In this document: positions 5,313 to 25,107 of the stretch, one piece after another
How the letters are laid out: each line of letters starts with the position of its first letter
Numbering within the stretch: the stretch's first letter is position 1
Source of the DNA: a virus
Virus record (IMG/VR): IMGVR_UViG_3300033153_001221
Location: 1-29,808 of that record
DNA length: 29,808 bases
Reading direction: 5' to 3' (one strand)
The notes under the pieces: generated by a model
Database searches by the model: none
What the model saw: the letters and a program-made list of their open reading frames with translations, nothing else
Told to the model about the DNA's origin: nothing
Position numbers and translations under genes: made by a program

Positions 5313-6716
5313 TTAGAATGTGCCGCCATTGAGCATATCGTTCAGCAGTACTTTGCGCATACCGACAGCAGTGTCGTAGTACGGGACGTAGTCAACTGCG
5401 CCGTCGATGCCTGCCTCGATAGTCAGAGTACTGGTGTCCAGATCGAACGTACGATTATCTGCAATCGTACCGCCACCTGTAATACCGACACCTGCTGTTA
5501 ACGTAATAGTCGTGTGATCGATGTGATCATTCGCATCCCAGTTCAGCAGAGAGTCATGGTCGATAGAACCGAGAGCCAGTGTGATGTCGATCTCTTTATT
5601 GCCATCATCGTTAGTAACTGTAAGGCCAGTACCGCCGGTGATGTTTTTGAATATCAGATCATTACCTGATTGGCTATGATACACACCAACGCCAGTAGCG
5701 CCGCCATTACTAGCAGTGTACGACCCAGCTCCAGAAAACTGAACAAAGTCGAGTGTAGTAGTATCAACAACAATAGGGTCATTAGTGGAAAGCACCCAGC
5801 CGGTGTCTGCATAACTTGTACCTTCTTCAATGAATGTGAACATACCACCAGTTACTTCATCGTCTTCGTCAGCATCAAGCGTACGTATCCACGTACCAGA
5901 GTCTGCGCCGATAGTGCCTACTGTATAGAGGCCGTTCTGAGAACCGGTTGATTGTGCGTTGATAAGCACGCGATCACCTGCGACCAGTGTTACGCCATCA
6001 ACAGTTAATGGGCCTGCGGACAGGGTAAGGTTTGAGCTGTTCTCTAAACAGCGAACTGACTCCTTAACATCCAGACCTGACGCTGTAGCGTCAACATACT
6101 GCTTTGTTGCAGCGTGTAGGTTAGCTGAAGGGTCGGCATCTAACGTAATACTGGCAACACCAGACATATTGTCTGAGCCGTCGATCGTAATACCGACCTC
6201 TTTGATCAGAGTACCGGAGGTGCCGTCCCATACTGTCATGGCAGTATCAGTAACAGCGACCCCGGGACCAGACACGTCGCCAGCACCAGCAGGTGTAGCC
6301 CACGCACCATCGCCACGCCAGAAGGTCGTAATCGAAGCACTTGTACCTGAGTCCAGATTCGTTACTGGTAAATTGCCCGTAACGTCTGCTGCTTCAGATA
6401 GATTGACCAGCTCTGCTGTGTACGTCTCAGAGGCTGTCTTCTTAAGAAAACCAGTCGCGGGAACGATGTCTGAGTGCATGATCGCACCAGCTGCGTTTAC
6501 GTTCGTACTATCAGTTACATCAGCACCGGTCGAGATGCCCAGCAATTTCTGCACATCTTTGTAGCCACCGATCTTCTCGAGGCTCGCGCCTGCGATACCG
6601 ATGAACAGTTCGCCGTCACCGGTGCCTGTACTCTCTGAATAGGCTAACTCGCCTTGCGCCAATGACGAAGGAGTAGCCGTTGTGGTGGACCGTTTGATCC
6701 GTATTTCGTTAGCCAT
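5313..6716 (-). CDS. Tail fibre protein with Mtd-type N-terminal anchor
   Basis: A 467-residue fibre protein. Residues 1-45 ([23 protein letters not shown], then GELFIG) match the N-terminal domain that attaches many phage fibres, first known in the Bordetella phage major tropism determinant. The middle, from about 195, carries the widespread module ATKQYVDA...[12 protein letters not shown], then [45 protein letters not shown] and [11 protein letters not shown]. The remainder is Thr/Gly-rich beta ([22 protein letters not shown]). It ends in [22 protein letters not shown], a common fibre ending. A strong AGAGGAG site precedes ATG. It probably contributes to host adsorption and is followed three bases later by a second fibre gene with a related anchor. 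Confidence 0.82.
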
Positions 6717-6727
6717 GATTTGCTCCT

Positions 6728-6988
6728 CTAAAAGTATCCGGCGTTAATTTCTATTGTTTCAGTGTCATCTGCAAGCTGCGTCCGATACACTATTGATTCC
6801 CACTTACTGTTCGCTCTTATCGACAATACCTCTGTCGATGGTACCAGCCACAGATCCCCTTCCACTATCGGGTTGGGCTCTGATTCCTGCACATATACTG
6901 ACCCAGCACCGGGCGGTCCTTGCGGGCCCTGTATCCCGACCGATATGACCCGGGGCGGATCGGTTAATACGACAATCCCGGTAGTCAT
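6728..6988 (-). CDS. Small collagen-motif tail protein
   Basis: An 86-residue protein with a short beta N-terminus ([16 protein letters not shown]) followed by a collagen-like GPQGPPGAG, then [22 protein letters not shown] and a beta hairpin ending in [10 protein letters not shown]. The E..P...VEGDLWL segment is a common phage fibre module. A short collagen-type segment usually makes a trimer joint, so this may be a small trimeric connector at the base of the fibre. It shares its VG.QGP.G motif with the 152-aa protein at 2768-3226. It is coupled by TAATG to the gene before and lies 11 bases before the 467-aa fibre gene, so the products probably assemble together. Confidence 0.68.
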
Positions 6989-8734: not shown

Positions 8735-11700
8735 CTAAACGTTAAAACTGGGGTCTCTGTATTCATAAGAAGCCCCGGGGTACATCAGGCGCATAAGATC
8801 GTTAGTAGCAAAGTTGTTAACAGATATTTCCCTCCCAGCATCGAGCTGAGCACCTATTGAGTCTATGAGCTCTCGATCACCAGCGATGAACGCATCAGTA
8901 TAATCTTCTACTAACTCCCGATATACATAGTAATCAAGGAGGATCGTAATTATACATAAACCATCAGTATCGTGCCCATCACGCACCCAGTGAAAAATAC
9001 TTTGGTAATCTATAACGGCTCCCTCTAATAGTGTTTTTGCATTACGCGTGTGTTGCACGTATGTTACATACGGGGTCTGCCTATATCTATCTGTGGCCGA
9101 AAAATTCAGCCCCCAATAGAAAGCCATATATTCTGACGGCTGCGGTATCCAGCCCGGAAGTATTGGATCGTAAAATTCAGGAAGCTCCCAGTTCGCTACT
9201 AGGTCCCACGCAGCGTATGGCAGATAACTAGATTCCGACTGCGGAACCCTAGAGCCTATGTACCCAGTAGTTCCAAAAATAGGCCGTAAATAGCTAGCGG
9301 TGTCGTACGCATACGTAAGCGCCTGTGATCTAGGTTTTCGGCATGCGGTAATTGGGTGTGTCGTCTTCATCGTGAAGTTATCAACATACTGCGTACTGGT
9401 TAGCTCATTATAGTAGCTGCTATAGGTCGTTCCTGAATTACTTCCGAATGTGCGTAAAGTAGCTGCGCTGATTATCTCTTCTTTAATATAGAACGCAGAA
9501 GTGAATTTGAATTGCTGAGTTACTTGGGCTACACGAATACTTAACTGAGATGAAGGTTCAAGCACTGTTGCATTAGGCGTAATCAAATCACGATCTTTGT
9601 AATACAGCACATACCCCTGCCTGTTCGCCGCGCCTAAAATATGGTTATCGACGTGCTGAACTAGCGCACTGTTGATTGCTACATACTCACCGTCCACCTT
9701 TATAGTATTTCGAGTAGCTTTGCTCACATACCCATTAACTGTAAACTCACCATCTACATCAACATCTGCTGGTATAGGCGGTATGTCTGTATCGTCTACA
9801 TTTATAATATATTGGTGTGGCTCAGTTTTAGAAAAATACCCCCCGCCGTACGTAGGCCCGCTCTGAATAATATCGATCTGGCCTCGTCTGTAAAAAGGGT
9901 CAAGGGCAATATTTCCAAAAACAGGCTCATAGTGAAAAGCGAACGATCCACTCTGCTGCTGCTTACCGTAATCAAAAGAACCGCCCGGTAGTCTAAGTGT
10001 TTCGTTCGCAGACGTAGTAAACGAAAAACTAATATCCAAGTAATCTTGGTATATGCCCGCATCTGATTTAGCTTTTGATGAGCTCGTTGTTTCGTTATAC
10101 ACAGACTCTATTTCTGGTGTTAGCTGCTCTGTAATAAATACTCCGCCTTCGTATGTAACACGCGTGCTCAGATTATCGAGCACCTCCATATTAGTTTCTA
10201 TATACCCCCCGATCGTTGAAGGCCTAGTGCTTATGCGTCGACTACGTGCAAACGATCCGTACCACCCGTTAGAGCCTTCAGTAACATCGTACTTAACTAT
10301 GACGGCCTCCCCTTCAGCATCGAATCTACCTATGTCGTAAAACGGCCCCGCCATAGTAGCTGATTCAATCATCTCATTGGATGTACCTACGTAGGGGCTA
10401 GTATCAAGAGACTCATTATTACGAATCACCGCAACAGTAGGATAGTCGGTAGCGCTACCGAACAGGTACTTATGTAAACTTACTACCTCTACCTCTCCGA
10501 TGTTCCTAAGAAACCCAGACACAGGATACTCTGTCGCGCGCACAACGCCGTCAATAGTGCTTGCGTTGTACTGCGTAAAAGATACTCTGTATACATAACG
10601 AAAAATGCCGCCACTTATAACGAGATGCCCATCACTATAATAATAGTCACCTCGAAGTGATGCATAGTGGGCAAAAACTATATCTGACGTATGTGTCAGT
10701 ATATCGGAAACATCTATTATGAATGTCGTACGAGTTTCCGTAACTGGGAGCTTCCCCGATAAGTATGCTTCAGTCATAGCGACTTCTGTCAAAGATTTAT
10801 CTGCATTCAAAGTATCTAGTTCGATTATCTTTGTGTTCACTGTGTCCGTAAAAGCAATAGAGAACTTAACAACTTCTGTCGGTGCAACAGTACCAATACC
10901 GGGGATGGCGTCTGCGTACGTCAGATTCCCCGTTAGCATAAAATACTGCTGTTCTGTCAGTATTGCGTAGTGCTGCACACCATACTTATACCCAACAACA
11001 TCAACCGGCAGTGGTTTCTGATTCGGCAGCGACGCTATGTCTCTGCCTATTGTCATAGTGTTAGACACAACTACATCAGCTGCGTATTCCTCGAGTATTT
11101 GCGCGTTTGCAAGTATCGGCATAAATATGACACGATCGCCGCCCTCGTTCGTGCCCACATATAGCTGACCAGCCGGTGGGATATTTAAAAGAAGATACGT
11201 AGCAAATTCTTCTACAGGGAACGCAGGATCAGAATCCGGACTAACTGTAGCGATAGCCTTCATACTACGCAACAAAGAAGAAGTTCCGGCTAAGCCGAGA
11301 TTCATCAAATTAGATAAGTACTGACTGCTGTACTGCCCGTACATCGTATCTGTATAAGCGTAAGACTTCCAGTTTCCATCATACGTAGCAGCTACTTGCG
11401 CAATAGATATAGAGGCGTACTCAGCGATAGGAGCTAAGCCTACTGCTTCTACCAGATCTGCGGAGGCTGGGGCGTCCTCAGTAGCGTAGAGAGAGATGCT
11501 ACTAATAACCCGCGCCCCCGGCTGATCGTCCCCACCTAGCGTGTACATTATATTATTGCCCCGTAACGTCAGCGCTTCTTCAAGCTCGTACGTAACAGTC
11601 ACTCGTTTTTTAGCCGGTTCGAACAGAAGAGTGAAGCCCTTATACCTATGGGACTGAGAGCCAGTTGTTTTTCTTTTTATCAGCCGCTTAAGGATAGCGA

Positions 11701-11770
11701 CTGAGTAACCTATTATTTCGTTAGGTGTTCCATTGGCCGCTACTATCTTCACTGCGACCACCCGCGCCAT
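8735..11770 (-). CDS. Large virion protein of unknown family
   Basis: A 1011-residue protein I do not recognise. It is soluble in appearance, beta-rich and unusually rich in Tyr (GQYSSQYLSN, YRQTPYVTYVQHTRN), with no signal peptide, membrane segment, coiled coil or fibre-type Gly/Thr repeat. The N-terminus (KIVAANGTPNEIIGYSVAILKRLIKRK) is basic. By eye the gene is more AT-rich and uses ATA, TTT and AGA codons more than its neighbours. The ATG at 11770 overlaps the upstream gene by 22 bases; a GTG at 11750-11752 in a GTGA overlap is an alternative start, with a weak GGGTGG site before it. It lies between the polyvalent ejection gene and the endolysin, so a third ejected protein, tail hub or receptor-binding part is plausible. 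None of these is proven. Confidence 0.68.
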   Translation of the reverse strand: MARVVAVKIVAANGTPNEIIGYSVAILKRLIKRKTTGSQSHRYKGFTLLFEPAKKRVTVTYELEEALTLRGNNIMYTLGGDDQPGARVISSISLYATEDAPASADLVEAVGLAPIAEYASISIAQVAATYDGNWKSYAYTDTMYGQYSSQYLSNLMNLGLAGTSSLLRSMKAIATVSPDSDPAFPVEEFATYLLLNIPPAGQLYVGTNEGGDRVIFMPILANAQILEEYAADVVVSNTMTIGRDIASLPNQKPLPVDVVGYKYGVQHYAILTEQQYFMLTGNLTYADAIPGIGTVAPTEVVKFSIAFTDTVNTKIIELDTLNADKSLTEVAMTEAYLSGKLPVTETRTTFIIDVSDILTHTSDIVFAHYASLRGDYYYSDGHLVISGGIFRYVYRVSFTQYNASTIDGVVRATEYPVSGFLRNIGEVEVVSLHKYLFGSATDYPTVAVIRNNESLDTSPYVGTSNEMIESATMAGPFYDIGRFDAEGEAVIVKYDVTEGSNGWYGSFARSRRISTRPSTIGGYIETNMEVLDNLSTRVTYEGGVFITEQLTPEIESVYNETTSSSKAKSDAGIYQDYLDISFSFTTSANETLRLPGGSFDYGKQQQSGSFAFHYEPVFGNIALDPFYRRGQIDIIQSGPTYGGGYFSKTEPHQYIINVDDTDIPPIPADVDVDGEFTVNGYVSKATRNTIKVDGEYVAINSALVQHVDNHILGAANRQGYVLYYKDRDLITPNATVLEPSSQLSIRVAQVTQQFKFTSAFYIKEEIISAATLRTFGSNSGTTYSSYYNELTSTQYVDNFTMKTTHPITACRKPRSQALTYAYDTASYLRPIFGTTGYIGSRVPQSESSYLPYAAWDLVANWELPEFYDPILPGWIPQPSEYMAFYWGLNFSATDRYRQTPYVTYVQHTRNAKTLLEGAVIDYQSIFHWVRDGHDTDGLCIITILLDYYVYRELVEDYTDAFIAGDRELIDSIGAQLDAGREISVNNFATNDLMRLMYPGASYEYRDPSFNV

Positions 11771-14700
11771 ACGCTAGCACCCGGCAAAGACTTCATCACT
11801 TTGCTCTGGTTGCCAGTAAGGACGCCGGTGGCTACTTGTGTTGGGTACGTAAGTGCGCCCAGATGATTCTCTAAACCTACGCCGCCGAACTCACGGTCTG
11901 ACTTGGAGTCCATTATCATCATACCGCCAACACCTACGATGCCAGAGCGATTGATAGCGTTCTCTATATAGTCCTGAGCTGACCAGTTACCTTTACGTGG
12001 GCTGCCGTCGAAACCATACTTGATCCAGTCACGTGCAGCATCGATCGCAATCATCGCAGGGACATACATCATCACTGCCATGGCAGGCGCCGCGTTACCG
12101 TGCTTATACATCTCAGTCCAAGCACGACGTAATATGCGATCGTGCATAGAATACATGAATGACTTGAGGTGGAAGAACAGCATGTAGTGCGGATCAGATG
12201 CCCAGATCGGACGCTGTGCTGCATTGGGGCGAAGTATCGCACCATCAACCCAGCGGAACAGAGCAGTACGAACGCGGTCATCGCGCGCTAACTTAGCGGC
12301 AGATACTTCGTCGCCAGCAGCGGCTTCTGTCTCCAGTACCTCACGACCTTGTCGTGTCAGTACCGCCACCTCTCCGTTAGCATCGAAAGTTACGTCGCCT
12401 TCCTGTAAACCCAGCTCTTCCATAAAACGCTCAGAGTTCTTATACTTTCCGTCGCTGTGCTTCTTAATAAAGTTCTTCGCAGATGCCAGAGCCATGACAC
12501 GTGTCAGCTTTGTGAGCTGGGTCAGTCCGATAGCTTTGAAGAAAAACTCGTTAACGCCTTTGAGCCGTGCGCTCATGTAAGTGCCACCATACTGATACTC
12601 AAGGGCTTCGTTTGTCATGTGGGTATCGATGACACCCAGACCACGTGCGAGCTCACTCATCTCTGAGCGTGCCAGTGCGCCATCCTTTTTACCAAAATTC
12701 TTAATACCGTTCTGTATCTCTTGCAGCCCTTGCGTGTATGCTTTCCAAGACGACTCCAGATCACCAGAGCGCACTGTGATACCCACGACATCTGCCATGG
12801 AGGTGAACATAGATAATCCGAGTACTGCGAGGTTACGGAACACGATCACTGAGCTCATCGCTTTCTGCAGTGTAGGATTAATCACCTGACCCGGAGTCGG
12901 TGTCTTACCGAACAGCGCGTACAGTTTATTATTTGTTTCCTGACCCAGCGTACCCAGTGATGCGTTCACATAGTTCTCAGCCATCTTCATCTGCGCTGTG
13001 GTAGCGCCGGAGTCCTGTGCTTTCTTCAGCAGTTCTTCTAAGTGGCGACCGTCAGTATCGAAGCGCTTGGTGTACTCAGCACGCTTAACCAAGGAGTCGA
13101 TATACTGGACCATCGTGTACTCGAGACTCTTATTGAGGAAGGGCTCTCGATCCTTTGCATCGATCCAGTCGAGGGTGCGTTGGTTAACCGCTGACATAGC
13201 AGGTGTAAAACCTACGCGGTTAGTCGTAGGGTTAACCGGTGTATCACCGTAACCCATGTTCTCTACGAGATGTGTGTACAGACCTTCAGGGCCGCTGCCG
13301 TCTTCTTTAAAGAAACGACCGTACTTAGGCTTGCGCAACATAGCGATGAACTCATCGCGATGATCCATCATGTACTGTGTGTCGTACATAACCGGGAAGT
13401 AGTTCTTACGGAACTTGATCGCCTTCTGACTGACCTCGCCCTTATTCATCATAGTAGCTACGCCATTCGCTTCAGCGTACTTATACATATCGTCAAACAG
13501 TTTACGCATAGCGTTCGAACGAGCGCGTTCCTCCATGCTCAGCTTACCGCCATACTCCTGCTGTGCATCTTTCAGGATGCGTGCCTTAGCTGCATCGTCC
13601 ATACCCTCGAGGATACGCTCAACGCGATCAGTATACTTGCCGACATTAGTAGCGCGCGCTTCGAAGTATGTCTCAGTAGTGCCTTTCTCATTACCCACGC
13701 GTGCGTGGAATAGCTTAGCTATTTCCTGAAGCGCAGGTATCGTTTGCATGCGTGAATCAGCAGTGAACGTATAGGCTTCGAGATAGCCCATCATACGACT
13801 GCCCTGCTCATACACAACGTTGGCTACGCGAGCAGTGAGTGTGTCGATATAAGTGTCTTTCAAAAAGAACGTGCGCTCTTCCAGCTGTCCGCTGATGCGT
13901 GACTCTTGGAGAGCTTCCAAGATAGCTTCCGCTTTGCTCTCTGTGTCATTGATCTGCAAGAAGTTACGCAGCCACTTCAAGACCTTGCCCATGACGTTGG
14001 TAGACTTAGGCCCCAGCTCTATCTCACCAGCGATCCACAACTGCACGCCGGCAGCCATAGACTGCAAAGGAGCAGCAGCCATCGAACCAGTGAGCTCCTC
14101 GATCTTCGCGCGCGCACTCGGTACTTTGAAAGCGTTTGTCAGTATCAGCTTCTCTTCTTGTATCAGTGATGAGTCTAACCAACGAGCGATCGCTACACGG
14201 CCCTGTGTGTCGTACGGGTCGGATGATGCGAGGTACGCACCGATAGTCTCACCGTTCAGAACACCGTCACGTCCGTTCTTAGACATCTTAATGCCCTGAA
14301 TATTTTTAGCTGCAGCCTCTTCCATATTATCCTGCGCTTGGTTGAACACAGCAGACTTACCTGTTGTATCCAGTGCACGTAGGAATTTAGCGACCTGCTT
14401 ATCAGGATCACCTTTGAAATCTGCGAACAGCTTGCGCAGTTTAGCAACGAGCTGTTTGAAGAAGCGCTCAACAGCATTCTTAGGAATGATGGTATCGTCC
14501 GCGAGGAAGCGTGCGGTGTTATCTGCAAACCACTCCTCGAAATCCAACAGATACTGCAGATCTGCTTTAGACATACTCTGCAATTCCGCATCTACGTTAC
14601 CAGTCATCGCACGCACTGCCATGTGTATAGTCATCTTGGATTTAACAACGTCGGACAGTTTAGCGCCGGGTCTAGCCTGAAGCTCGTCGCGCCATGCTTG

Positions 14701-17700
14701 GAAAGCTTTATCGATAGCTGCAGCGTTAGTAATGTTCACATGTTGTGTAACAACCAGATGCCCTACCTCATGAGCGAGCGTCTCCAACTGAGCCGCCTGC
14801 GATATGTTTGGATTTATGTAGATGCCCTGCTCAGACGCGAACCCATTATAGCTAGTGCTTACGATCTCGTTACCCAGAGCGTCTTTACTAATCATGTTTG
14901 GCCGATCAGCGATCTTCAGTGCTTCTACAGCTTCGCCCACTGTCAGAAGCTTGAAGTCTTTCAACCCTAGCTGCTTACGCCATTTGATGGCAGTACTCAG
15001 CACGCTCGGCATAATTACTTTATCTGGAACAGCGCGCTTAGCGACCTTGCGCTTTTTCTTCTTCGTAACTTTTACAGTCGGCTTGCCAGTACGTGGGATT
15101 ACGTTTCTGAACCCGGTCTCTCTGGCTTTCAGTCCGCCCACCAGTGCGCGGTCAATGAATTTCTCTACTGCGCCTCGATCCATGTCTTCTAGCGTGAAGC
15201 CGCCTTCGAACTCACCCGTGCCTGTCTTATTAGATTCGAACAGATCTTCCAGTGCTGCTTCTACAGATAAATTAGTAGCTCGTGTCTTGCCCTCAACACC
15301 AGACTTAAAATCAGGCAGTGCTGCTTCTGCTCCTCGCTTCTCCTTGATATACGCACGGATGTCGCCCATGGTGGTGATCTTGTTTTCGAATTTACCTGTC
15401 TCTTCGTTCTTCACCTTACGGCTGTGCACGAAGATCGTAGTGTTATCAGGGATCTTGGAGATGTTTGAAATGATCAGCCCGTGGTCTGCGAACAGAGAGG
15501 TTACACCTTCACGGAACGCGCGTGCGATGTTAGCGTCAGTAGTATGCCCCAGTGATCCAGTCTTCGTAGCTTTAGACAGTTGTCCCAGTGCACGGCCTAT
15601 CAGCGACGGGAAATTAACAGACAATCGCTGTTTAGTATCTTTACGTTTTGGTTTGCCGTCCTCACCGCGTACGATCTGTACCAGCGGTACCTCGGCTTTA
15701 GCACGAGCGCCTGTCAGCCCCTGATTAGGAATATTACGAACGATACTCTTCTTAACTCGCACATCAGACGTTGGCTTCACATCAACCTTGCCCAGCGAGA
15801 TAGTCGTATCATCTGCACTGGCTGCAACAATCGGAGATGTGTCTGCCACCATCTTCTGCTTTTTAATAGCGAAGAAGTTACTCAGGAATTGTTTCGGATC
15901 GCTTGTCGCCTGCGCCTTAAGCGCTTCGACTTTCTGTGCATCGAACGCAGCGTTCTCACTAGGCTTGATCGCTTCCCACAACTGCTTACCGGACTTAGTC
16001 TTCAGCAGCTTCTGCGCAGCGCCTTCGACTACCTGCTCCGCAGTGTACTTACCGCCCTCTGAAATAAGTGTTGGCTTAGTGTCTGTTAGCCGACCTGACT
16101 TATCACGCATGCGTAAGCTACGTGTCTGTCCTTGCTTAACAGATTCAACGACCATCTCAGACAGAGGCACCTTAGTGTATACGAAGCCGCCGCTAGTAAC
16201 GGAGTCCTCTTCACCAAACCCTGTAATACCAGTCTTTTCGTCCACCAGCGTCGATACCTGTTGTTTCGCCTGTGCATCAGTGAGCGCATCAGCTACCTCG
16301 AAGGCGCTGACTGGCTTACCGCCACGCTCTTTTGATTTAGCTTTTGCGGTCTCTACCTCAGCACGAAAATCTACTTCTGTAACAAACGTGGGCGATACTT
16401 CGAAATCACCTTCGAGCTCTTTGCCGCCAACTCCGCCTTCTTCAGTTTCGAAGCCGGTAATAGCTGCTTCGCCTGCTTCTTTAAATTCAGGATCAAAACG
16501 ATCACGTATGTCGTCGATAATGTCGAACACACTGCCTTGGTCACTACCGTAACGTTTGTCCAGTTCTTCGAGCACATCGGTATCGATCAGTTCTGGGTCA
16601 CGAGCATACTCAGATATCGTCAGGACATCATTCATCTGCTCACCAGTATCACCGAGCAGTCCGCGCTCACCTAATACGTCTTCAGTCGTAGATATTTCGG
16701 ACAGCGCTTGGCTGAACTTAATCGCCTGCTTCTGCACATCCGGATCTTGCAGGTCGTCGCCCAGTACCGCATCGATCTCATCAGTAACGCCTTGGCGTCC
16801 TTCGAATCGAGTACGTAACTGGCTCAGTGTATTCTTAACGCGCGCACCGCCGAGCTGATCACCAATCTCCATATCACTGATCTGTTGGCCGATAGCATCG
16901 AACGAATCGCTGCCTTCTTGCATTGCGCCCTGTATTGCGCCACCGAAACCACCGATACCACCACCGAGCAGACCGCCAGCAGCGATAGCGTTCCGCATCT
17001 CGCTCAGACCTTCTTCAGTGAAGATGTCAGCGTTATCGTTTAGGAATTTGTGTGCAGCGCGTTCGACTATAGTCTGTGCGCCTTCAGTACCAGCCTCTAG
17101 CGCGCCCTGTGTGATAGCGCCTTTTGAAATAGCTTTACCGACAGATTTCTTAATCGCACCGGTGGCTGCTTTATCTACACCGAAGCGCTTAGTGATGCCT
17201 ATGAATGGGAGCGCCTCAAGTGAACCAGCTACTGTGCCAAAGCCAAGCGCAGTTACTGCCCGTTCACGTGGGGTAGTGGTTTCCCTGATAGACATATCAG
17301 ATTGGAGTTCTGGGAATATAGAGCCGGTCTCTAGCCCGCTCGCGCTAGTGACCATGCCAGTCGTAGCGGCTGCGGCGGTTGAAGGTAGTGCTGCTTTAGG
17401 TAGAGCTGCGCGAACAGCGCCTCTCACGCCTACGCCTGCAGGTCCGCCTACTACCATGGAGGCCATGATGGGTATCTGTTGGCCGATCGCACCGACTGCC
17501 CAGTCAGTAAATGCATCGATATCGTTTACTTCATCGACGTTCTGAATACGGGGACCGAACTGCTGAGCGCGTTCTTGGAATTTCTGTGACTCCATGACAG
17601 CTGCATCAGCAGCTTCGTTGTCACCAGCGAATGCTTGGGCAGCGCCCTCTACACCAGAAGATATAGAAGACAGTTGCTCCATACCAGAGCGTAGCCCTTT

Positions 17701-17805
17701 CTGGAACTGGCTCTTTGACTGAGCCGCTGGCATCCCAGTACGTGGGTCAACCTGTAACGGTTTTAAGCCCTCTCTCAAACCTGTGGCTGGATTTAGTTTT
17801 GGCAT
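11749..17805 (-). CDS. Giant polyvalent ejection-type protein with HEVGH metallopeptidase and LPD38-like end
   Basis: A 2018-residue multidomain protein of the phage polyvalent class, expected to be packaged and injected with the DNA. Residues about 100-300 contain Gly/Ala-rich hydrophobic stretches (IPIMASMVVGGPAGVGV; AAGGLLGGGIGGFGGAIQGA) that could cross membranes. A Lys-rich linker (KVTKKKKRKVAKR) lies near 915. The zincin core is LETLAHEVGHLVV, with H1012, E1013 and H1016; E1090 or E1091 in DFEEWFADNTARFL is the likely third metal ligand, followed by FFKQLVAKLRKLFADF. A long helical region follows. The last 120 residues (AMIAIDAARDWIKYGFDG, then YIENAINRSGIVG) resemble the LPD38 domain found at polyvalent protein C-termini. 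Substrate unknown: cell wall, host proteins or virion self-processing are all possible. The start shares TAATG with the upstream stop. Confidence 0.78.
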   Translation of the reverse strand: MPKLNPATGLREGLKPLQVDPRTGMPAAQSKSQFQKGLRSGMEQLSSISSGVEGAAQAFAGDNEAADAAVMESQKFQERAQQFGPRIQNVDEVNDIDAFTDWAVGAIGQQIPIMASMVVGGPAGVGVRGAVRAALPKAALPSTAAAATTGMVTSASGLETGSIFPELQSDMSIRETTTPRERAVTALGFGTVAGSLEALPFIGITKRFGVDKAATGAIKKSVGKAISKGAITQGALEAGTEGAQTIVERAAHKFLNDNADIFTEEGLSEMRNAIAAGGLLGGGIGGFGGAIQGAMQEGSDSFDAIGQQISDMEIGDQLGGARVKNTLSQLRTRFEGRQGVTDEIDAVLGDDLQDPDVQKQAIKFSQALSEISTTEDVLGERGLLGDTGEQMNDVLTISEYARDPELIDTDVLEELDKRYGSDQGSVFDIIDDIRDRFDPEFKEAGEAAITGFETEEGGVGGKELEGDFEVSPTFVTEVDFRAEVETAKAKSKERGGKPVSAFEVADALTDAQAKQQVSTLVDEKTGITGFGEEDSVTSGGFVYTKVPLSEMVVESVKQGQTRSLRMRDKSGRLTDTKPTLISEGGKYTAEQVVEGAAQKLLKTKSGKQLWEAIKPSENAAFDAQKVEALKAQATSDPKQFLSNFFAIKKQKMVADTSPIVAASADDTTISLGKVDVKPTSDVRVKKSIVRNIPNQGLTGARAKAEVPLVQIVRGEDGKPKRKDTKQRLSVNFPSLIGRALGQLSKATKTGSLGHTTDANIARAFREGVTSLFADHGLIISNISKIPDNTTIFVHSRKVKNEETGKFENKITTMGDIRAYIKEKRGAEAALPDFKSGVEGKTRATNLSVEAALEDLFESNKTGTGEFEGGFTLEDMDRGAVEKFIDRALVGGLKARETGFRNVIPRTGKPTVKVTKKKKRKVAKRAVPDKVIMPSVLSTAIKWRKQLGLKDFKLLTVGEAVEALKIADRPNMISKDALGNEIVSTSYNGFASEQGIYINPNISQAAQLETLAHEVGHLVVTQHVNITNAAAIDKAFQAWRDELQARPGAKLSDVVKSKMTIHMAVRAMTGNVDAELQSMSKADLQYLLDFEEWFADNTARFLADDTIIPKNAVERFFKQLVAKLRKLFADFKGDPDKQVAKFLRALDTTGKSAVFNQAQDNMEEAAAKNIQGIKMSKNGRDGVLNGETIGAYLASSDPYDTQGRVAIARWLDSSLIQEEKLILTNAFKVPSARAKIEELTGSMAAAPLQSMAAGVQLWIAGEIELGPKSTNVMGKVLKWLRNFLQINDTESKAEAILEALQESRISGQLEERTFFLKDTYIDTLTARVANVVYEQGSRMMGYLEAYTFTADSRMQTIPALQEIAKLFHARVGNEKGTTETYFEARATNVGKYTDRVERILEGMDDAAKARILKDAQQEYGGKLSMEERARSNAMRKLFDDMYKYAEANGVATMMNKGEVSQKAIKFRKNYFPVMYDTQYMMDHRDEFIAMLRKPKYGRFFKEDGSGPEGLYTHLVENMGYGDTPVNPTTNRVGFTPAMSAVNQRTLDWIDAKDREPFLNKSLEYTMVQYIDSLVKRAEYTKRFDTDGRHLEELLKKAQDSGATTAQMKMAENYVNASLGTLGQETNNKLYALFGKTPTPGQVINPTLQKAMSSVIVFRNLAVLGLSMFTSMADVVGITVRSGDLESSWKAYTQGLQEIQNGIKNFGKKDGALARSEMSELARGLGVIDTHMTNEALEYQYGGTYMSARLKGVNEFFFKAIGLTQLTKLTRVMALASAKNFIKKHSDGKYKNSERFMEELGLQEGDVTFDANGEVAVLTRQGREVLETEAAAGDEVSAAKLARDDRVRTALFRWVDGAILRPNAAQRPIWASDPHYMLFFHLKSFMYSMHDRILRRAWTEMYKHGNAAPAMAVMMYVPAMIAIDAARDWIKYGFDGSPRKGNWSAQDYIENAINRSGIVGVGGMMIMDSKSDREFGGVGLENHLGALTYPTQVATGVLTGNQSKVMKSLPGASVWRGWSQ

Positions 17806-19634
17806 TATCTCGCTGCATTTTGAAGTGTTCTGGCTTGGCCAGTTCCACGCATTATAACCCTAAGCATGTGATCACGCATGTTTGGTTCCAGTTCATCTGC
17901 GAAGAACAATGGGCGTACCTCGCTAACGACGTTACCCTGTGCGTCCTCTGTAGGCACTTCCATGCCTACGACTGTGTCGCCATCACTATCCTGAGTAACG
18001 CTCATCAGATTAATCGTCTCACGATTAACCGCCAGATCGCCGTTATCATTAAGTATGTCCGCAGCACTAAAGCCTGAGCTAACCAGTGCATTAGAGATAC
18101 TCTCCATCACGCCCGGGTCCATCAGCGGTGTCATAGCAGATGTCAGCATCTGCGATGCTGCTACTGAGCTCGCACTATCGGGGCTGAAGTTAGACTGCAG
18201 CGCTTGGTTAATTGTCGTATCCTCTAAATTCTTCAGTTGGCCTTTTTCTTTATCAGAGAAGAAGCCACTAGCATCGTCCTTAAGTTGTTCGTAATTATCC
18301 AGAATACTGGTAGCTTCCTTACCGACCTTATCTACCCGCTCCTGTACAGAGAAGTCAGTGCCCTGATTCGCCGCACGCGTACGCGCACCACGTAATGTGT
18401 TCAGTACGTTCTGCCCTTCTATAGTAGAACGAGCCTTAGCTTCATTAACATTCAGCTCACGCCCTGCTTTCTTAGTCGTATTCTCACGTTTAGCGATACC
18501 AGTAGCTGTGTTATACGCAGCCAGATCACCGATGCCGCCAGTAGCTTGGACGCCCGCATCTTTCAGTACATCAAAGCCTGAACGGAACTTACCTGCTTCA
18601 TCAGCTAGGAACTCACGATTCGATGCTGCGCCGCGCAGACCAGTAGTGGGCTGTTTAGTAGCTACGCCTGCGGGCTCCTGCGGAACACCTGCAACCTTTG
18701 GTGGCTGCGACGCTGCATCGGCTGCGCCTGCGCCTGCAGGTTGTTGGTCTGTTGGAGACACAGCCTCGAGCATACGACCAAACGGATCGCGCATTGAGCG
18801 ATTCTGTGCTTGGTTACGATTAAAGTTTTCAGTGAACGGCCCTTCTTGGAACGCAGCACGTCCTGCATCACCGATCGTAAGACCGACGTTAGCTGCGGTA
18901 TCGAGCACGCCTGCGCCTACACCAGCCGCTGTACGGAGCGGGCGATTAATCGCTTGGCGACCAAAGTCAGCCGCGTTCTCTGGCAGGTCTTGTATAAACT
19001 CACCACCAGCTTCCACTGCATCAGTAGCCGCTGCATCGAAGCCACGATCAGCTACGTCAACACCGAACTGAATGCCTTGATCGACCAGACCAGCAACAGC
19101 TGCTGGGCCGCCAATCTTAGCCGTAGTACGGCCTGCTGAACGAAGGGCACGGTTCTTCAAACTGCGCTTAGGTGCCTCAGCCGCAGGACGGCTTGGGCCT
19201 CTATCAATTTCTGCGCGGGTAGTCGCACGTTGAGTGGGCGTCTCAGTAGGTGGAGGCGTAGTCGCTCCGCCAGCAGTACGTGGCGCTGCCTGTTTTACTG
19301 GAGAGCCTTGTTGTGGGCCGGCTGCACGAGCACGTATGCTCTCATTCGCTCTGGCTGCAGAGCCGCTAGTAGCCGCCTTAACTTTGCTCTTCGTAGTGTC
19401 AGCTACTTTCGTAACTGTCTCAGCTGCTTTGGCTTTAGCGCCCGGAACCTTGCTCTTAAGAGCACTGGCTGCACCTGTTACTTTCTGCGTAGCGGCCTTT
19501 ACCTCTTTGCTGCCAGTAACAGTTTTCTTTATGTTAGTACCGGCGTCACGAAGCCCACCGACAGCTTTGTCGATAATATTCTGCTTCTTAGGTGCTCTCG
19601 CTTTACGTCGTCTATTTTTCTTGCGTTCTGCCAT
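17805..19634 (-). CDS. Basic internal virion (ejection-type) protein
   Basis: A 609-residue protein with an extremely basic N-terminus (MAERKKNRRRKARAPKKQN) followed by about 100 residues rich in Lys, Ala, Thr and Val, resembling histone H1 tails (SKVKAATSG, AKAKAAETVTK). Residues about 110-165 are a Pro/Thr/Arg-rich linker. Residues about 170-280 are Ala/Gly-rich helices with small-residue hydrophobic faces (IGGPAAVAGLVDQGIQFGVDVADRGFDAAA), as in ejection proteins that insert in membranes. The rest is polar and Gln/Asn-rich. No enzyme motif is seen. It precedes the 2018-aa polyvalent gene and is coupled to it by TAATG at 17803-17807. DNA contact inside the capsid and transfer with the genome are inferred from composition and context. 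Confidence 0.65.
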   Translation of the reverse strand: MAERKKNRRRKARAPKKQNIIDKAVGGLRDAGTNIKKTVTGSKEVKAATQKVTGAASALKSKVPGAKAKAAETVTKVADTTKSKVKAATSGSAARANESIRARAAGPQQGSPVKQAAPRTAGGATTPPPTETPTQRATTRAEIDRGPSRPAAEAPKRSLKNRALRSAGRTTAKIGGPAAVAGLVDQGIQFGVDVADRGFDAAATDAVEAGGEFIQDLPENAADFGRQAINRPLRTAAGVGAGVLDTAANVGLTIGDAGRAAFQEGPFTENFNRNQAQNRSMRDPFGRMLEAVSPTDQQPAGAGAADAASQPPKVAGVPQEPAGVATKQPTTGLRGAASNREFLADEAGKFRSGFDVLKDAGVQATGGIGDLAAYNTATGIAKRENTTKKAGRELNVNEAKARSTIEGQNVLNTLRGARTRAANQGTDFSVQERVDKVGKEATSILDNYEQLKDDASGFFSDKEKGQLKNLEDTTINQALQSNFSPDSASSVAASQMLTSAMTPLMDPGVMESISNALVSSGFSAADILNDNGDLAVNRETINLMSVTQDSDGDTVVGMEVPTEDAQGNVVSEVRPLFFADELEPNMRDHMLRVIMRGTGQARTLQNAAR

Positions 19635-19644
19635 GGCTCTCTAC

Positions 19645-21489
19645 CTACGTAATTTCTACATCTACAGCGCTCGCTAGTGCGCCCAGTGATGTATAGAATT
19701 CCTGCCACATCTCTGCAGGTTTAGTGTAATTATCGATACGTGCTTTCATCAGCGCTATATTATGATCAGAGAAGTTCTTCTGCTCGATCATGCGCAGATT
19801 GCCCAGTGTCGCGTTATAGTCATTAACAAACTTCCCTGTCTCAACCGCCAGTCCGGCTTGCCCTACAGTTAGGTCGCCGTGTGCTGACGCTATTCTAGCT
19901 GCGCCATCAGATTGTGCAATCGCTACATCAGCTGAAGCTCTCTGCGAAGCGATCTGCGCTGTGTAACCGCGTATCGCAGAATCGTATGCTGATAGTATAG
20001 TCCGTTGCTCATCTAATTCAATAGACGCCTTCTGCACCTGTATGTCCGATACCAGCTTAGCTGCTCGAACTTCAGACTCATGTGCGCCTACCTGAGTCTT
20101 GTACAGCTCGACTCGAGTGCCTTCAGCGTTGACCTGTGCAGTGAATGCTTGGATCTTAGCGATCTCTACATCTACACCGCTGCGATGCGCTTGGACTTCA
20201 GAGTTAAACACAGCCAGTTTATTGCGCTCGATGTCGCTGCGTATCTTAGCTGCCTGCATCTCAGTATTATATATGTCGATGATCAGACCGGTCGCACGCA
20301 CCTGAGCGCTGTACGCATCGATCTGCGATTTGTTTAGATCAATCTTAAGCGCTTCTGCTTCAAGCTGAGCTTTCTGTGCTTCGAGGTTCGCCATCTGGCC
20401 ACGAATCTCTGTTGCCCATGCAGTCGCATACTGTGCATACGCCTGTACGCGCGCATTATATAGTTCAACATTCGCATTGAATGAACGCAGAGCAAAGTCG
20501 ATCGTAGACTGCGCTGCTGATAGTAAGCGCTGCTGTACGAAACCGAAGTTCGTAACCATTGTCTGATTAAGCGTGAGCGTATTAGCCAGCACGTTCTCAC
20601 GAGATTTACGTATCAGATCAGCTCGCTGAATACTGACTTCACGATTAGCATCGGAGACTTCGTCGAGTGTTTTTTGTTGGTTCTTTCGCAGAAGCGCAGC
20701 AAGTACGCCAGTAGGCAGTTCGAAGCCACGCGACGCCATAGTTTCAATAGTTGTTTCTTCATCAGTAACTCCAGCGCTTGTAGCGCGGTCTACTTCACGA
20801 TCGAACAATGCCTCTTCGTCGATGTGGTTAACACCCCAGCCTCCGTTGCGTAAATCATCCAGTATTAAGTCACGCAGCGCTACGAGCTCTTCAGAGTCAT
20901 AGTCTTCTTCTTCGTAGAAGAACGTAGAGTCAGGCGCTAACAGATCATCCGGTACATCAGGGAACACCTGAGTAAACAGCGGAATTGAAATCGAGCCTAT
21001 AGATGGCAGTACGATGTCGGACAGCTCTGGCACTGAAGGTATTGAATACACCGGCGCGTCAGGCGTCTGTACGTCATTAATGTTTGGAGCAACCGGTGCA
21101 GAGGGAATCAGTACTGACGGTGCAGATGGAATATTTACAATAGGCATCGTTGCAGTCAGCGCTGGTGCTGATGGCAAATCTATAACTGAATCTATTACAA
21201 GCGCGGGCGCAACAGGTAGTGCTGCAGCATTAAACTGTGCCGCTGAATAGCTATTCGCTGCGTCATCGAGAGCTGCGGTCGTAGCATCAAACCCGGCGGG
21301 GCTTCCGAAACTACCTACGAGCTGATCTAAGTCAGCGAGCTGGCCCGATACCGGGTCTACAAAAAACGCATCGCTCTCTGGGTTAAGCCGCGTCTCCATA
21401 TTCGCCAGCATATCCGCCATCTTTTCTGCCGCAATAGCGGCTTGCGCGGTGATATCTGCTGCATCAATTACGTTTGTAGGGGAGCCCAT
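19645..21489 (-). CDS. Helical virion protein with Pro-rich segment and long coiled coil
   Basis: A 614-residue protein coupled by TAATG to the upstream repeat protein. Residues about 95-175 are rich in IPSAP and VPELS-type proline motifs, an extended linker. Residues about 190-215 are strongly acidic (YEEEDYDSEELVALRDLILDD), leading into DLRNGGWGVN...DEEALFDREVDRATSAG and ASRGFELPTGVLAALL. This arrangement, an L..DL..GG.G....EEA...R..DR block followed by a RGF.LP.G segment and a helix, recurs in virion proteins of many phages. Residues about 275-580 form a nearly unbroken Ala/Gln/Glu-rich coiled coil without Pro or Gly breaks. No catalytic motif is seen. Position before the basic 609-aa and 2018-aa proteins suggests an internal virion or ejection protein; a structural rod is the alternative. 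Confidence 0.68.
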   Translation of the reverse strand: MGSPTNVIDAADITAQAAIAAEKMADMLANMETRLNPESDAFFVDPVSGQLADLDQLVGSFGSPAGFDATTAALDDAANSYSAAQFNAAALPVAPALVIDSVIDLPSAPALTATMPIVNIPSAPSVLIPSAPVAPNINDVQTPDAPVYSIPSVPELSDIVLPSIGSISIPLFTQVFPDVPDDLLAPDSTFFYEEEDYDSEELVALRDLILDDLRNGGWGVNHIDEEALFDREVDRATSAGVTDEETTIETMASRGFELPTGVLAALLRKNQQKTLDEVSDANREVSIQRADLIRKSRENVLANTLTLNQTMVTNFGFVQQRLLSAAQSTIDFALRSFNANVELYNARVQAYAQYATAWATEIRGQMANLEAQKAQLEAEALKIDLNKSQIDAYSAQVRATGLIIDIYNTEMQAAKIRSDIERNKLAVFNSEVQAHRSGVDVEIAKIQAFTAQVNAEGTRVELYKTQVGAHESEVRAAKLVSDIQVQKASIELDEQRTILSAYDSAIRGYTAQIASQRASADVAIAQSDGAARIASAHGDLTVGQAGLAVETGKFVNDYNATLGNLRMIEQKNFSDHNIALMKARIDNYTKPAEMWQEFYTSLGALASAVDVEIT

Positions 21490-24400
21490 TATTGTGCCTT
21501 CCGATTATGTTGTTGTACAAATACGCTAAGGTCGTCAATCAAGAAATCAGCCCCAGCAACGTTCTTAACGCCATACCCCCAGTATCGTGACTTCAGTCCT
21601 TTGGCTATCGTAGCACGTCCGCGCTTGATTCCGCTGGTGCTGGATACGTGCTTAACACTATATTCTCGTATTTCGTCCTCGCCGTCCACTACAATCTGTA
21701 TATTCAGCGCCCCTGCATTATCTGCTCTATAGCCGATGTGGACTGCTTTGACGCGCTTGAGGTCCTCAGTTCTGAAACTGTCGAAGCCGAACAATACGTC
21801 AGCGTCGATGTCGACAGTATTATCAGTATCACCGGTAAGTTCATATACGCCATCATCAGACACTCCTATGTTTTTGCCGAATACGTTAGCAACTAGCAAA
21901 TAATTATAATTATCGTACTCGCTCATACGCATGCTCTCTGTATTAAACGCCCAGCCTGAGTGCGTCAGAGTAGCAGTAACCTGCATGTATCCCTGCGCTT
22001 CTACAGCGGGGAGGGTCAGATCTGCATAGAGCAGGCCAGCAGATACCATCGCGCTGACCAGAGAGTCCATTGTAAAGACCGGCAGTGTTGCGTCCCCTGT
22101 ACTCACTGTTCCGCCGGCATTTACGCCGAATGCAGATAGTGAAGGTATAGCCATGTTGCCTACGATAATCGGGCTGTTTACTGAGTTGCCGACCATGGTC
22201 AGGCTAGGCAGTGACAGGTATCCGTTATCGTCTAAGAATCGATCATCGCCGACGCCTGATGTAGCGATCAGCATCGGTATACGCATCTGACCGACAGACA
22301 CAGATGATGTAATCATCGCGCCTGCAACTACTATCGATGGAAGTGTTACATCAGCAGTATTGTCGCCAGCTGCCGCTACTTCCAGCAGTGGGAGCGTCAT
22401 CGCACCTTCAGCGTATGCGCCCGCAACTATCTCACCAGTAATGGTAAGCGGCGCCATCGTCATACTTGACAGCAGCGTCTGCGTCATAACAGCGTCGGCT
22501 GTCAGAGCGGGTATTTCCATTATGTGGTATTCGATGTAGCCGTCTATGGTCATCGCGCCCATGGTCATGTCGCCACGCATATACGCAGTAACTTCGCCGG
22601 TCGCTACCATCTCTGGTGTTACTGTTACGTCGCCAACCGCTCCTGCGACTATCTCACCAGCAGCTACGATCGTAGGCACCAGCGTAACCGACGCATCAGA
22701 ATGCAGAGTGGCTCTGCCAGTCGCTGAGATTGTTTGGCTAAGAGTTACGTCGCCATCAGCGTGCAGAGTGGACCTGCCGGTCGCTGAGATTGTTTGGCTG
22801 ACAGTTACGCCGCCATTGGAGTGCAGTGTTTGATTAGACGCGGTAGCTGTTATCGTAGGTGTAACTGTTACATCAGCATCAGAGTGCACAGTTATGCGCC
22901 CTGTTGCAGACATCGTAGGCGTTACAGTTACGTCGCCATCAGCATGAAAAGACGGATGCGCTGTTGCGGTGATAGTAGGCGCTAGTGTTACGTCGCCATC
23001 AGCATGCAGGTCGATGTGGCTAGTCGCTGCGACTGTAGGTGTAACAGTTACATCGCCATCAGCTGTTGTTGGCGGTGTGTAGAATGCTGATGTAACATCC
23101 CACGCAGTGTCCATATCATACTGATATATCATACCGCTGAATTCTGATGACCACATACGGTTGCCATCAGGCTGCACTGCTATAGCGAGCGCAGTGGTGA
23201 TCTCTGAAGAAGTGCTGTACGTGCCTACGTAAGCTAGTGAGCTCATGTCCCACGCAGGGGACATAGAATATTCATCTATCTGGTCATTAGGGCGGTCATT
23301 TAAGAAAAACTGAAGCCCGTCTGCTTTAATACTAACCCCGCCTTCTGGGACGCCTGAATTAGCACTAACTGATGTGGTGTGGTTGTACGTTACCGTTCCA
23401 GATAAGTCCCACGCCGTAGTAAGTGTGTACTGATCTATATTCGTACTATCGTCGAGGTACATCTTCGTACCATCAACACTAAACCTAACGCCTATAGCCG
23501 CTGTTGAATTAGCAGAGATGTCGTAATTATGATCTTCTGTTCCGCCTAACGAACTCAGGTCCCACGCGGTGCTCATGGTGTATCTGCGCACTCGGTCGTT
23601 ACTAGAGTCATGTACGTATAATTTCGTACCGGAGTCTCCAATATGCATACCGTAGCTAGCAGCGCCTAGCTCTGTCGGAGACTTGCTTACAGTGTCATAA
23701 GACGCATCTCTTATGTCCCATGCATACAAGCATGAGAACTGAAATATGTCCCCGTCTTGATCCAGACAATAAAAATGTAGTCCGTCGTCACTCCACACGA
23801 TCGCTCTGAGATTGCCAGATATTGGCGCGCTCGTATCAAATGTCACCGAATCAGTTGTGGTCCACGGCTCGTAGTCCGCTGTTGTTACGTCCCACGCGGT
23901 GCTTAAGGTGTACTGATACACCCCGTCAGTATCAACCGCTGACGGTACGTACATCTCTGTACCGTCGCCTTTAAAGAACAGCCCGCCGCCGCCGCCTCCG
24001 CCCTCTGTGTACGTAAAATCCTGTCCCGTATCAAAACTGCCTGAGCCTATGTCGAACGGCGTTGACAGCGAATAGCGATCTACTTCGGTGAAACTACCTA
24101 TAAGCACATAATCATTAGTGCCGTCTTCTACATACAACCCGCGCGCATTGCCTAGCTGCGAACCATATGCCATGCTCTTCGATGCATACGTCACTGTCCC
24201 TGTGATGTCGTGCGCTGTTGTTACGGTGTACTGATAGACTGTGTTACTGACCGCGCCGCTGATATACAGCTTAGTGCCGTCAGGGCTCAGTGCTACTGTG
24301 TACGGTCCCGCTTCTTCTGGGTTTACATCAAACGTTCCGTCAAGTGACGCACTTGTTAAGTCCCATGCTGATGATAGCGTCCACTGTTCAACGCGATCAT

Positions 24401-24653
24401 TGCCGTTGTCCATAAAATACAGCTTCGTACCAGCCGTATTGAACCATAGGTCATATGCAGAGACGCCGACATTTAATGACAGCGTCTGCCCGGAGTCAAA
24501 AGTACCGGTGTTTACGTCCCACGCAGTCGACAGCGTGTAGCGGTGCACTTTATCGCCGCCGCGATAAATTATAAACAGCTTAGTACCGCTGTCGCCTATA
24601 TAGAGGCCTTGCGGGCTCGCTGACTCCGCGCTTACATCAAGAAACTTACCCAT
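21489..24653 (-). CDS. Large repeat protein: propeller-like N-half, tandem-repeat stalk, beta C-terminus
   Basis: A 1054-residue virion protein, probably an adhesin or appendage. Residues about 1-525 contain ten copies, spaced about 52 residues, of a beta-propeller blade ending in a sequence like YQYTLSTAWDV, preceded by SPDGTKLYI-type strands. Residues about 525-700 hold eight clear 20-residue units of the form HADGDVTVTPTITATG, followed by degenerate units (MTLPLLEV, SLPSLTMVG, MAIPSLSAFG) to about 880. The final part (about 900-1054) is a separate beta domain with FGKNIGVSDDGVYELTGDTDNTVDID and GYRADNAGALNIQIVVDGED, resembling a jelly-roll or carbohydrate-binding module. The start has an AAAGGT site, and the stop shares TAATG with the next gene. 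A surface-binding role is inferred from architecture; the family is not recognised. Confidence 0.7.
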   Translation of the reverse strand: MGKFLDVSAESASPQGLYIGDSGTKLFIIYRGGDKVHRYTLSTAWDVNTGTFDSGQTLSLNVGVSAYDLWFNTAGTKLYFMDNGNDRVEQWTLSSAWDLTSASLDGTFDVNPEEAGPYTVALSPDGTKLYISGAVSNTVYQYTVTTAHDITGTVTYASKSMAYGSQLGNARGLYVEDGTNDYVLIGSFTEVDRYSLSTPFDIGSGSFDTGQDFTYTEGGGGGGGLFFKGDGTEMYVPSAVDTDGVYQYTLSTAWDVTTADYEPWTTTDSVTFDTSAPISGNLRAIVWSDDGLHFYCLDQDGDIFQFSCLYAWDIRDASYDTVSKSPTELGAASYGMHIGDSGTKLYVHDSSNDRVRRYTMSTAWDLSSLGGTEDHNYDISANSTAAIGVRFSVDGTKMYLDDSTNIDQYTLTTAWDLSGTVTYNHTTSVSANSGVPEGGVSIKADGLQFFLNDRPNDQIDEYSMSPAWDMSSLAYVGTYSTSSEITTALAIAVQPDGNRMWSSEFSGMIYQYDMDTAWDVTSAFYTPPTTADGDVTVTPTVAATSHIDLHADGDVTLAPTITATAHPSFHADGDVTVTPTMSATGRITVHSDADVTVTPTITATASNQTLHSNGGVTVSQTISATGRSTLHADGDVTLSQTISATGRATLHSDASVTLVPTIVAAGEIVAGAVGDVTVTPEMVATGEVTAYMRGDMTMGAMTIDGYIEYHIMEIPALTADAVMTQTLLSSMTMAPLTITGEIVAGAYAEGAMTLPLLEVAAAGDNTADVTLPSIVVAGAMITSSVSVGQMRIPMLIATSGVGDDRFLDDNGYLSLPSLTMVGNSVNSPIIVGNMAIPSLSAFGVNAGGTVSTGDATLPVFTMDSLVSAMVSAGLLYADLTLPAVEAQGYMQVTATLTHSGWAFNTESMRMSEYDNYNYLLVANVFGKNIGVSDDGVYELTGDTDNTVDIDADVLFGFDSFRTEDLKRVKAVHIGYRADNAGALNIQIVVDGEDEIREYSVKHVSSTSGIKRGRATIAKGLKSRYWGYGVKNVAGADFLIDDLSVFVQQHNRKAQ
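22600..23070 (-). repeat. 60-nt tandem coding repeats (20-aa units)
   Basis: Eight clear in-frame units of 60 bases (one is 63) encode HADGDVTVTPTxxATGxxx-type 20-mers. Each unit carries gttac[ag]tcgccatcagc or a close variant on the plus strand. The units around 22702-22757 and 22762-22817 are nearly identical, indicating a recent duplication or conversion. More degenerate copies continue toward 22100. Confidence 0.85.
23080..24640 (-). repeat. Ten propeller-type coding repeats (about 52 aa each)
   Basis: Ten imperfect copies of a blade module occur within the first half of the 1054-aa protein. The diagnostic end of each is [ST]xAWD[VLI], e.g. LSTAWDVNT, LSSAWDLTS, VTTAHDITG, LSTPFDIGS, LSTAWDVTT, LYAWDIRDA, MSTAWDLSS, LTTAWDLSG, MSPAWDMSS and MDTAWDVTS. 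At DNA level only the stretch around tcccacgc is well kept, so the copies are old. Confidence 0.75.
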
Positions 24654-24666
24654 TACAGGCTACCTT

Positions 24667-25107
24667 TTACTCAGGTACAGTGATAGTAAACGTGTCTACA
24701 GTTACCTTGTCTGCTATAGCAATGGTTGTCGATGTCATCTGCAGATCACCGGTACCTACAGCTACAGTAGTCACATCACCATCGATGCGAATTTCTGTAG
24801 TGCTGGATGCACCAGTATCAGATGTTGTCATCAGACGGAACCATGTAGCTGTGCTAGCTGCGATAGCAGATAGCTCTTCCCATGCAGCGGAGTCAATAGA
24901 CAACACGCCATTAGAGATAGCAGCAAACGCACTTGCCGGTAAGTCTACAGAAGCAAGCAACGTACCTGCACCGACTACGTCGTTAGCAGATGTGGGCTGC
25001 GTGCCATCATATATGTCGAGGTTGCCGAGATCGAAAGCTGTTTCGATAGCGGTTGTACCTGAGAGCATGTTGTCACGCAGGCCCTGTGAAAATTTTGCAT
25101 TAGCCAT
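24667..25107 (-). CDS. Small virion protein, paralogue 2 of a tandem pair
   Basis: A 146-residue protein starting 11 bases after its paralogue, with an AGGAG ribosome site eight bases before ATG. Shared blocks include S.GLR at the start, IYDGTQPTSANDVVGAGTLL (IYSGSQPTSPDD in the other copy), a Trp followed by an FRL strand, ASSTTEIRIDG (ASTTDSRMDG in the other), MTSTTIAI and a final F.IT.P. Identity outside these blocks is low, so the duplication is old and each copy has diverged, suggesting different positions or partners in the virion. The gene ends 13 bases before the large repeat protein. Function is unknown; a tail-associated role is inferred from context. Confidence 0.72.
   Translation of the reverse strand: MANAKFSQGLRDNMLSGTTAIETAFDLGNLDIYDGTQPTSANDVVGAGTLLASVDLPASAFAAISNGVLSIDSAAWEELSAIAASTATWFRLMTTSDTGASSTTEIRIDGDVTTVAVGTGDLQMTSTTIAIADKVTVDTFTITVPE

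Follow-up and report, generated by a model that had tools for sequence, protein, structure and literature searches.

The 2018-residue protein encoded on the minus strand of the window (the whole 29,808-nucleotide stretch analyzed here, a 29.8 kb virus fragment held as IMG/VR record IMGVR_UViG_3300033153_001221) carries a C-terminal core homologous to T7 gp16. Ahead of that core lie an intact zincin-type site and a degenerate second zincin, and the core-bearing relatives of this protein almost always keep a single intact zincin. We see about an even chance that it belongs to the internal virion (ejection) proteins of short-tailed phages as a giant member, with a peptidase that cuts its own chain or its partners during or after ejection. 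Ejection proteins are the route of short-tailed phages across the cell envelope.

The late operon and the layout of the giant protein

The gene is a single uninterrupted ATG open reading frame whose opposite strand is full of stops. The initial annotation had its extent and length right and gave no strand. The frame matches the 'virion structural protein' family phrog_30152 over residues 1246-2016 (1.5e-78) and sits within a podovirus late operon together with genes for the major capsid protein, an SU10-type adaptor, and tail proteins, all on the minus strand. The features referred to below are as follows.

28962-29783, minus strand: major capsid protein (Phage_capsid_3; PF13252, 1.5e-23), a marker of the late structural operon
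26793-27503, minus strand: SU10-type adaptor protein (PF24175, 2.4e-8)
19645-21489, minus strand: conserved 614-aa protein, second putative ejection-operon partner (phrog_10969)
17805-19634, minus strand: 609-aa protein directly upstream, fast evolving, putative ejection-operon partner by position
11749-17805, minus strand: 2018-aa open reading frame, putative ejection protein with gp16-like core and zincin (phrog_30152 match)
16906-17805, minus strand: N-terminal region, residues 1-300, Gly/Ala-rich and conserved in relatives (alignment A4, hydropathy)
15001-16905, minus strand: middle region, residues 301-935, a fast-evolving variable slot with sequence recognizable only in the closest relative, L012
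14311-15000, minus strand: Z1, zincin metallopeptidase domain, residues 936-1165 (AlphaFold2; sub-threshold Peptidase_M78, phrog_87 metallo-protease)
14758-14772, minus strand: HEVGH, residues 1012-1016, zinc-binding His and catalytic Glu (conserved motif)
14533-14535, minus strand: E1091 in FEEWFAD, probable third zinc ligand (conservation in core-recruited relatives)
13771-14205, minus strand: Z2, degenerate second zincin, residues ~1201-1345, HExxH and third Glu lost (profile match, column comparison)
11752-13335, minus strand: core, residues ~1491-2018, helical module like T7 gp16 or internal virion protein D (hhalign, Foldseek BFVD, VP2 p19)

Of the relatives examined, at least 13, from both the Z1 and the Z2 class (L114 is one case), have a ~610-aa homologue of the 614-aa protein upstream, and in most of those a fast-diverging open reading frame separates it from the giant gene. 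The slot of the 609-aa protein itself holds a frame of ~420-860 aa in most relatives examined, with a sequence match in L012 only. By analogy, the two upstream frames and the giant gene may correspond to the consecutive ejection genes gp14-gp15-gp16 of T7 and gp52-gp51-gp50 of N4. Searches of NCBIfam and PADLOC gave no matches, nor did a sequence search against the PDB, and a provirus search of genome contigs confirmed none.

Several other genes on the minus strand are of separate interest. The gene for a 1011-aa protein at 8735-11770 shares 22 bases with the giant gene's end; the protein matched nothing in Pfam, PHROG, or NCBIfam, and the relatives examined have no homologue in this position. 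The gene at 21489-24653 encodes a 1054-aa protein that starts with a weakly beta-propeller-like region, contains repeats of the unit 'DGDVTVTPT..ATG', and ends in a conserved virion-structural part (phrog_26502); in relative L001, this position is taken by a SPRY domain. The adjacent 146-aa genes at 24667-25107 and 25119-25559 resemble each other through cross-hits in relatives and probably represent a tandem duplication in the tail region.

The C-terminal core and its kinship with T7 gp16

Relatives were gathered as six IMG/VR loci, then as 62 seeded by the EEWFAD motif, and then as 75 seeded by the C-terminal core alone, a set that is unbiased regarding the peptidase. Among named phages, homologues occur in KPP25/R18-type Pseudomonas phages, Aeromonas phiA008, Microcystis Mae-Yong1326-1, and Roseobacter CRP-810. 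The window protein and L012 share 77% identity in residues 1-300, 56% in the middle region, 64% in Z1, 61% in Z2, and 83% in the core.

Three comparisons tie the core to gp16 and internal virion protein D. With hhalign, it aligned to a gp16 alignment of 20 T7-like rows plus LKA1 and L223 at 97% and an E-value of 5.1e-11 over ~390 columns, with a score of 93 as against at most 22 for the reversed and 15 shuffled controls. Against the T7-like rows only, the E-value was 2.2e-5 and the score 49, compared with at most 23.4 across 30 column shuffles. VP2 p19, an entry that BFVD calls Internal virion protein, matched the core profile at 7.7e-10 (0.018 for its reversed sequence). Finally, an AlphaFold2 model of residues 938-2018 built with 64 sequences (pLDDT 78, with the core mostly above 85-90) gave 78 Foldseek matches below 1e-3 among the predicted viral structures of BFVD. 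Among them are entries named 'large polyvalent protein', the structural protein of KPP25 (2.5e-30), and numerous T7-like phage proteins labeled internal virion protein D or internal core protein. Pfam had no matches on the core, and a full-length Foldseek search against the PDB returned nothing significant.

The initial annotation had described the last 120 residues as LPD38-like, and we reject that assignment in favor of a gp16 or internal-virion-protein-D type for the C-terminal ~530 residues. The LPD38 model PF18857 is silent in the window and in up to 83 relatives, while the same model finds JC1 gp69 at 2e-34; profiles of alignment A7 and of the core have nothing meaningful in common with the LPD38 region of JC1. 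The ~800 residues downstream of the peptidase, which had no assigned role in the initial annotation, hold a degenerate second zincin followed by the gp16-like core. The gp16 link turns this formerly unassigned region into a testable ejection module, and many 'large polyvalent protein' entries could be annotated as gp16-type ejection proteins, with the LPD38 label corrected.

The resemblance to T7 extends to gene position, as gp16 is also a large late protein encoded downstream of other structural proteins. However, T7 gp16 has an N-terminal transglycosylase and no zincin, whereas the window protein is ~700 residues longer (N-terminal region, slot, and peptidase) and has a zincin instead of a lytic transglycosylase, for which Pfam gave no match. 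The transglycosylase at the gp16 N-terminus is itself phage-specific, present in T7 and absent in P22-like phages (PMC8954989). KPP25 ORF088 (Kochitakasuvirus; phrog_30152) is homologous across residues 1216-2016 of the window protein at 27% identity, shares the layout of Z2 followed by the core, is annotated as a structural protein, and belongs to an operon with other structural genes. That annotation, the PHROG category, and the gene context suggest by analogy that the window protein may be packaged and ejected.

The N-terminal region, the slot, and the two zincin domains

Residues 1-300 contain two Gly/Ala-rich hydrophobic stretches, 111-131 (KD 1.37) and 184-204 (KD 1.47). The initial annotation had put such stretches near 110-130 and 270-290; the former agrees with ours, and the latter is Gly/Ala-rich (52% G+A across 268-296) but falls below the hydropathy cut. 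These residues likely form a membrane module, and they have weak profile similarity to the N-terminal domain of the N4 vRNAP (score 31 vs 24 reversed). Residues 301-935 have no Pfam match, no recognized domain, and no relatives beyond L012. The parts lying upstream in 27 core-bearing proteins yielded one instance each of ART-PolyVal, LPD23, NADAR, DUF7831, and an additional M78 domain.

In Z1, the residues H1012, E1013, and H1016 proposed by the initial annotation are where it put them, and FEEWFAD spans 1089-1095. At the composition of this protein, chance alone would yield about 0.013 HExxH motifs, the motif is retained in relatives at 20-35% identity, and HEVGH is, judged from sequence conservation, a true zincin motif. 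Alignment A9 was recruited via the motif itself, so its H/E/H/E invariance is partly by construction, and we used core-recruited sequences to choose between E1090 and E1091, both of which had been offered as ligands. E1091 is the likely third ligand because its equivalent is Glu in all core-recruited relatives inspected, whereas position 1090 varies (E, D, H, or T). AlphaFold2 modeled residues 936-1165 confidently (pLDDT 84.8, pTM 0.79) and predicted the helix and strand order expected of a zincin, with H1012, E1013, and H1016 on helix 1003-1022 and E1091 on helix 1089-1102. This two-helix order is the one described for polyvalent MPTases by Iyer et al. 2017 (PMC5512222). Against the PDB, the Z1 model had no significant match to a solved zincin, the best being Certhrax (E 0.58). 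Peptidase_M78 (PF06114) reached 17 bits (E 0.0052) against a curated cut-off of 22 bits; it is listed for 5 of 9 members, with that same best E-value. A profile comparison with the C1 zincin of N4 gp50 gave a modest match (E 1.4e-4, score 35 vs 13 for the reversed control). In L033, L034, L037, L038, L039, and L040, the Z1 motif reads HEALGH or HEAIGH (HExxxH), an expanded form mentioned for some polyvalent peptidases in the same paper (PMC5512222).

The second domain tells the opposite story in the two branches of the family. The profile of the Z2 region matches an intact HES[LMFI]H/HEALH zincin in KPP25-type relatives, and in alignment A7 all 24 of these have HExxH and the third Glu; in the 19 window-type sequences, a complete HExxH is absent from Z2 and the third Glu is mostly replaced. 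KPP25-type proteins thus lack Z1 and have an intact Z2 (HESMH), whereas the window protein has an intact Z1 and a degenerate Z2. Dereplication at 85% core identity left 56 proteins. Z2 alone is intact in 27 of them, Z1 alone in 25 (including six with Z2 undetectable and L148, assigned by eye), both in 2 (L016 and L128), and neither in 1, with L158 unclassified, so that exactly one intact zincin is found in 52 of 56. L024 alone has both zincins apparently dead: Z1 of this 3083-aa protein reads HEMGE near residue 1840, with the second zinc-binding His lost; its sister L057 keeps HEIGH. On a maximum-likelihood core tree, the four zincin states need 5 changes where the minimum possible is 3. The pattern is therefore old and has been kept, yet it follows deep clades with few independent switches behind it, which makes it suggestive and short of proof. 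The comparison of Z1 with Z2 amounts to a set of natural active-site swaps that predict essential residues.

Both the link to gp16 and the pattern of a single intact site seem to be new. A gp16-type core in zincin-bearing giants, a dead second zincin, and alternation of the intact site were not found in open-access literature, and a review of ejection proteins does not mention a protease. The accessible text of Iyer et al. 2017 describes MPTases in phage polyvalent proteins, N4 gp50 included, that resemble Z1 in having HExxH and a Glu helix with a variable insert between them, a large multidomain chain, and ART or LPD domains in relatives, and it contains neither the gp16-type core nor the Z1/Z2 alternation (PMC5512222).

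What the peptidase may do

The proposal of a virion-borne polyvalent protein with a peptidase gains from the zincin-type site, the PHROG virion matches, the KPP25 annotation, the late genes, and the relatives with ART-PolyVal or LPD domains; the part of it that fails is LPD38 at the C-terminus. In the mechanism that we favor, the transglycosylase of gp16 would be replaced by a glycine-rich N-terminal region, a variable cargo slot, a zincin, and then a dead zincin remnant. The protein would be packed in the head and ejected together with the DNA, and its N-terminal region and core would interact with the cell envelope and the inner membrane. The peptidase, with H1012, H1016, and E1091 as its putative zinc site and E1013 as general base, would next cut its own chain or neighboring ejection proteins, freeing the cargo segment from the membrane-bound core. 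We favor processing of self or partners because nearly every core-bearing relative keeps an intact zincin by the core and recognized effector domains are sporadic. A processing role for polyvalent MPTases was proposed by Iyer et al. 2017, citing processing of P1 DdrB (PMC5512222). Counted against this reading are the clade structure of the pattern, the lack of a significant match to a solved zincin, and the HEMGE of L024. Strict action in cis is also not universal, since CRP-810 has its zincins and core on separate annotated genes. The N4 vRNAP has an HExxH domain yet is packaged unprocessed, according to the same source (PMC5512222), and therefore autoproteolysis is not general.

The main rival, which we hold to be clearly less probable, has the delivered zincin cleaving host proteins (defense or stress proteins, for example) with the gp16-like core as only a delivery vehicle. 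Relatives carry ART-PolyVal, NADAR, and LPD23 upstream of zincins in the same chain, and Iyer et al. 2017 deem host-directed MPTases possible (PMC5512222). If the N-terminal hydrophobic region spans the membrane as in N4 gp50 (PMC12633501), the zincin would be cytoplasmic. However, effector domains are usually patchy, which is not how an intact zincin in nearly every core-bearing relative is distributed. It is unlikely that the zincin opens the cell wall, replacing the transglycosylase of T7 gp16 by cutting peptide cross-links of peptidoglycan. The zincin does occupy the place of the T7 gp16 transglycosylase, upstream of a gp16-like core (PMC8954989), and no wall-lytic domain appears in the upstream parts of the 27 relatives or in five neighboring proteins of relatives. 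Yet it resembles M78 and polyvalent zincins and no known peptidoglycan-hydrolase family, and in KPP25 a separate putative endolysin is encoded among the structural genes. Wall cutting is also less likely because the zincin would follow, rather than precede, the probable membrane region. In T7 gp16, the transglycosylase at the N-terminus works in the periplasm, while the DNA-binding gp16-C ends up in the host cytoplasm (PMC8954989).

Loss of catalysis, with the fold kept as a scaffold, has a low probability in our estimate. Z2 is dead in the window protein, Z1 of L024 has lost one ligand, and activity of the window protein is a prediction from sequence; set against this, the HExxH motif and the third Glu have persisted as a set over deep divergence, and the loss of a site from one domain goes along with its retention in the other. 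Least probable of all is descent from an N4-type vRNAP that lost its polymerase, with a homologous N-terminal domain, C1 zincin, and C2 and with the middle region in place of the polymerase. N4 gp50 (Schitoviridae) does share a membrane-type N-terminus, central cargo, an HExxH zincin, a large helical C-terminus, and the same operon place, and Z1 has its profile match to C1. However, the RNA polymerase of N4 has no Pfam match in the window protein and no phmmer match in core-bearing relatives, and the N-terminal similarity is weak. The C-terminal modules are unrelated by profile (core vs N4 C2, scores 22-35, E 0.01-0.2) and by structure (9pnr, E 1.6, TM 0.07), and on these grounds we reject the core equivalence suggested by the layout.

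Returning to self or partner processing, we would extend it, tentatively and with more doubt than confidence, to a large podoviral gp16-type family that needs exactly one working zincin by the ejection core, moved between two tandem domains, so that its own protease matures the ejection machine. If true, this maturation would be a step not known for T7 or P22.

In Roseobacter phage CRP-810 (L010), the giant is split at ~6640-6760 into gp35, with two HExxH zincins, and gp34, with the core. The peptide MLRGRKLD occurs near the gp35 end and again at the gp34 start, which suggests a small duplication with a frameshift or an assembly artefact.
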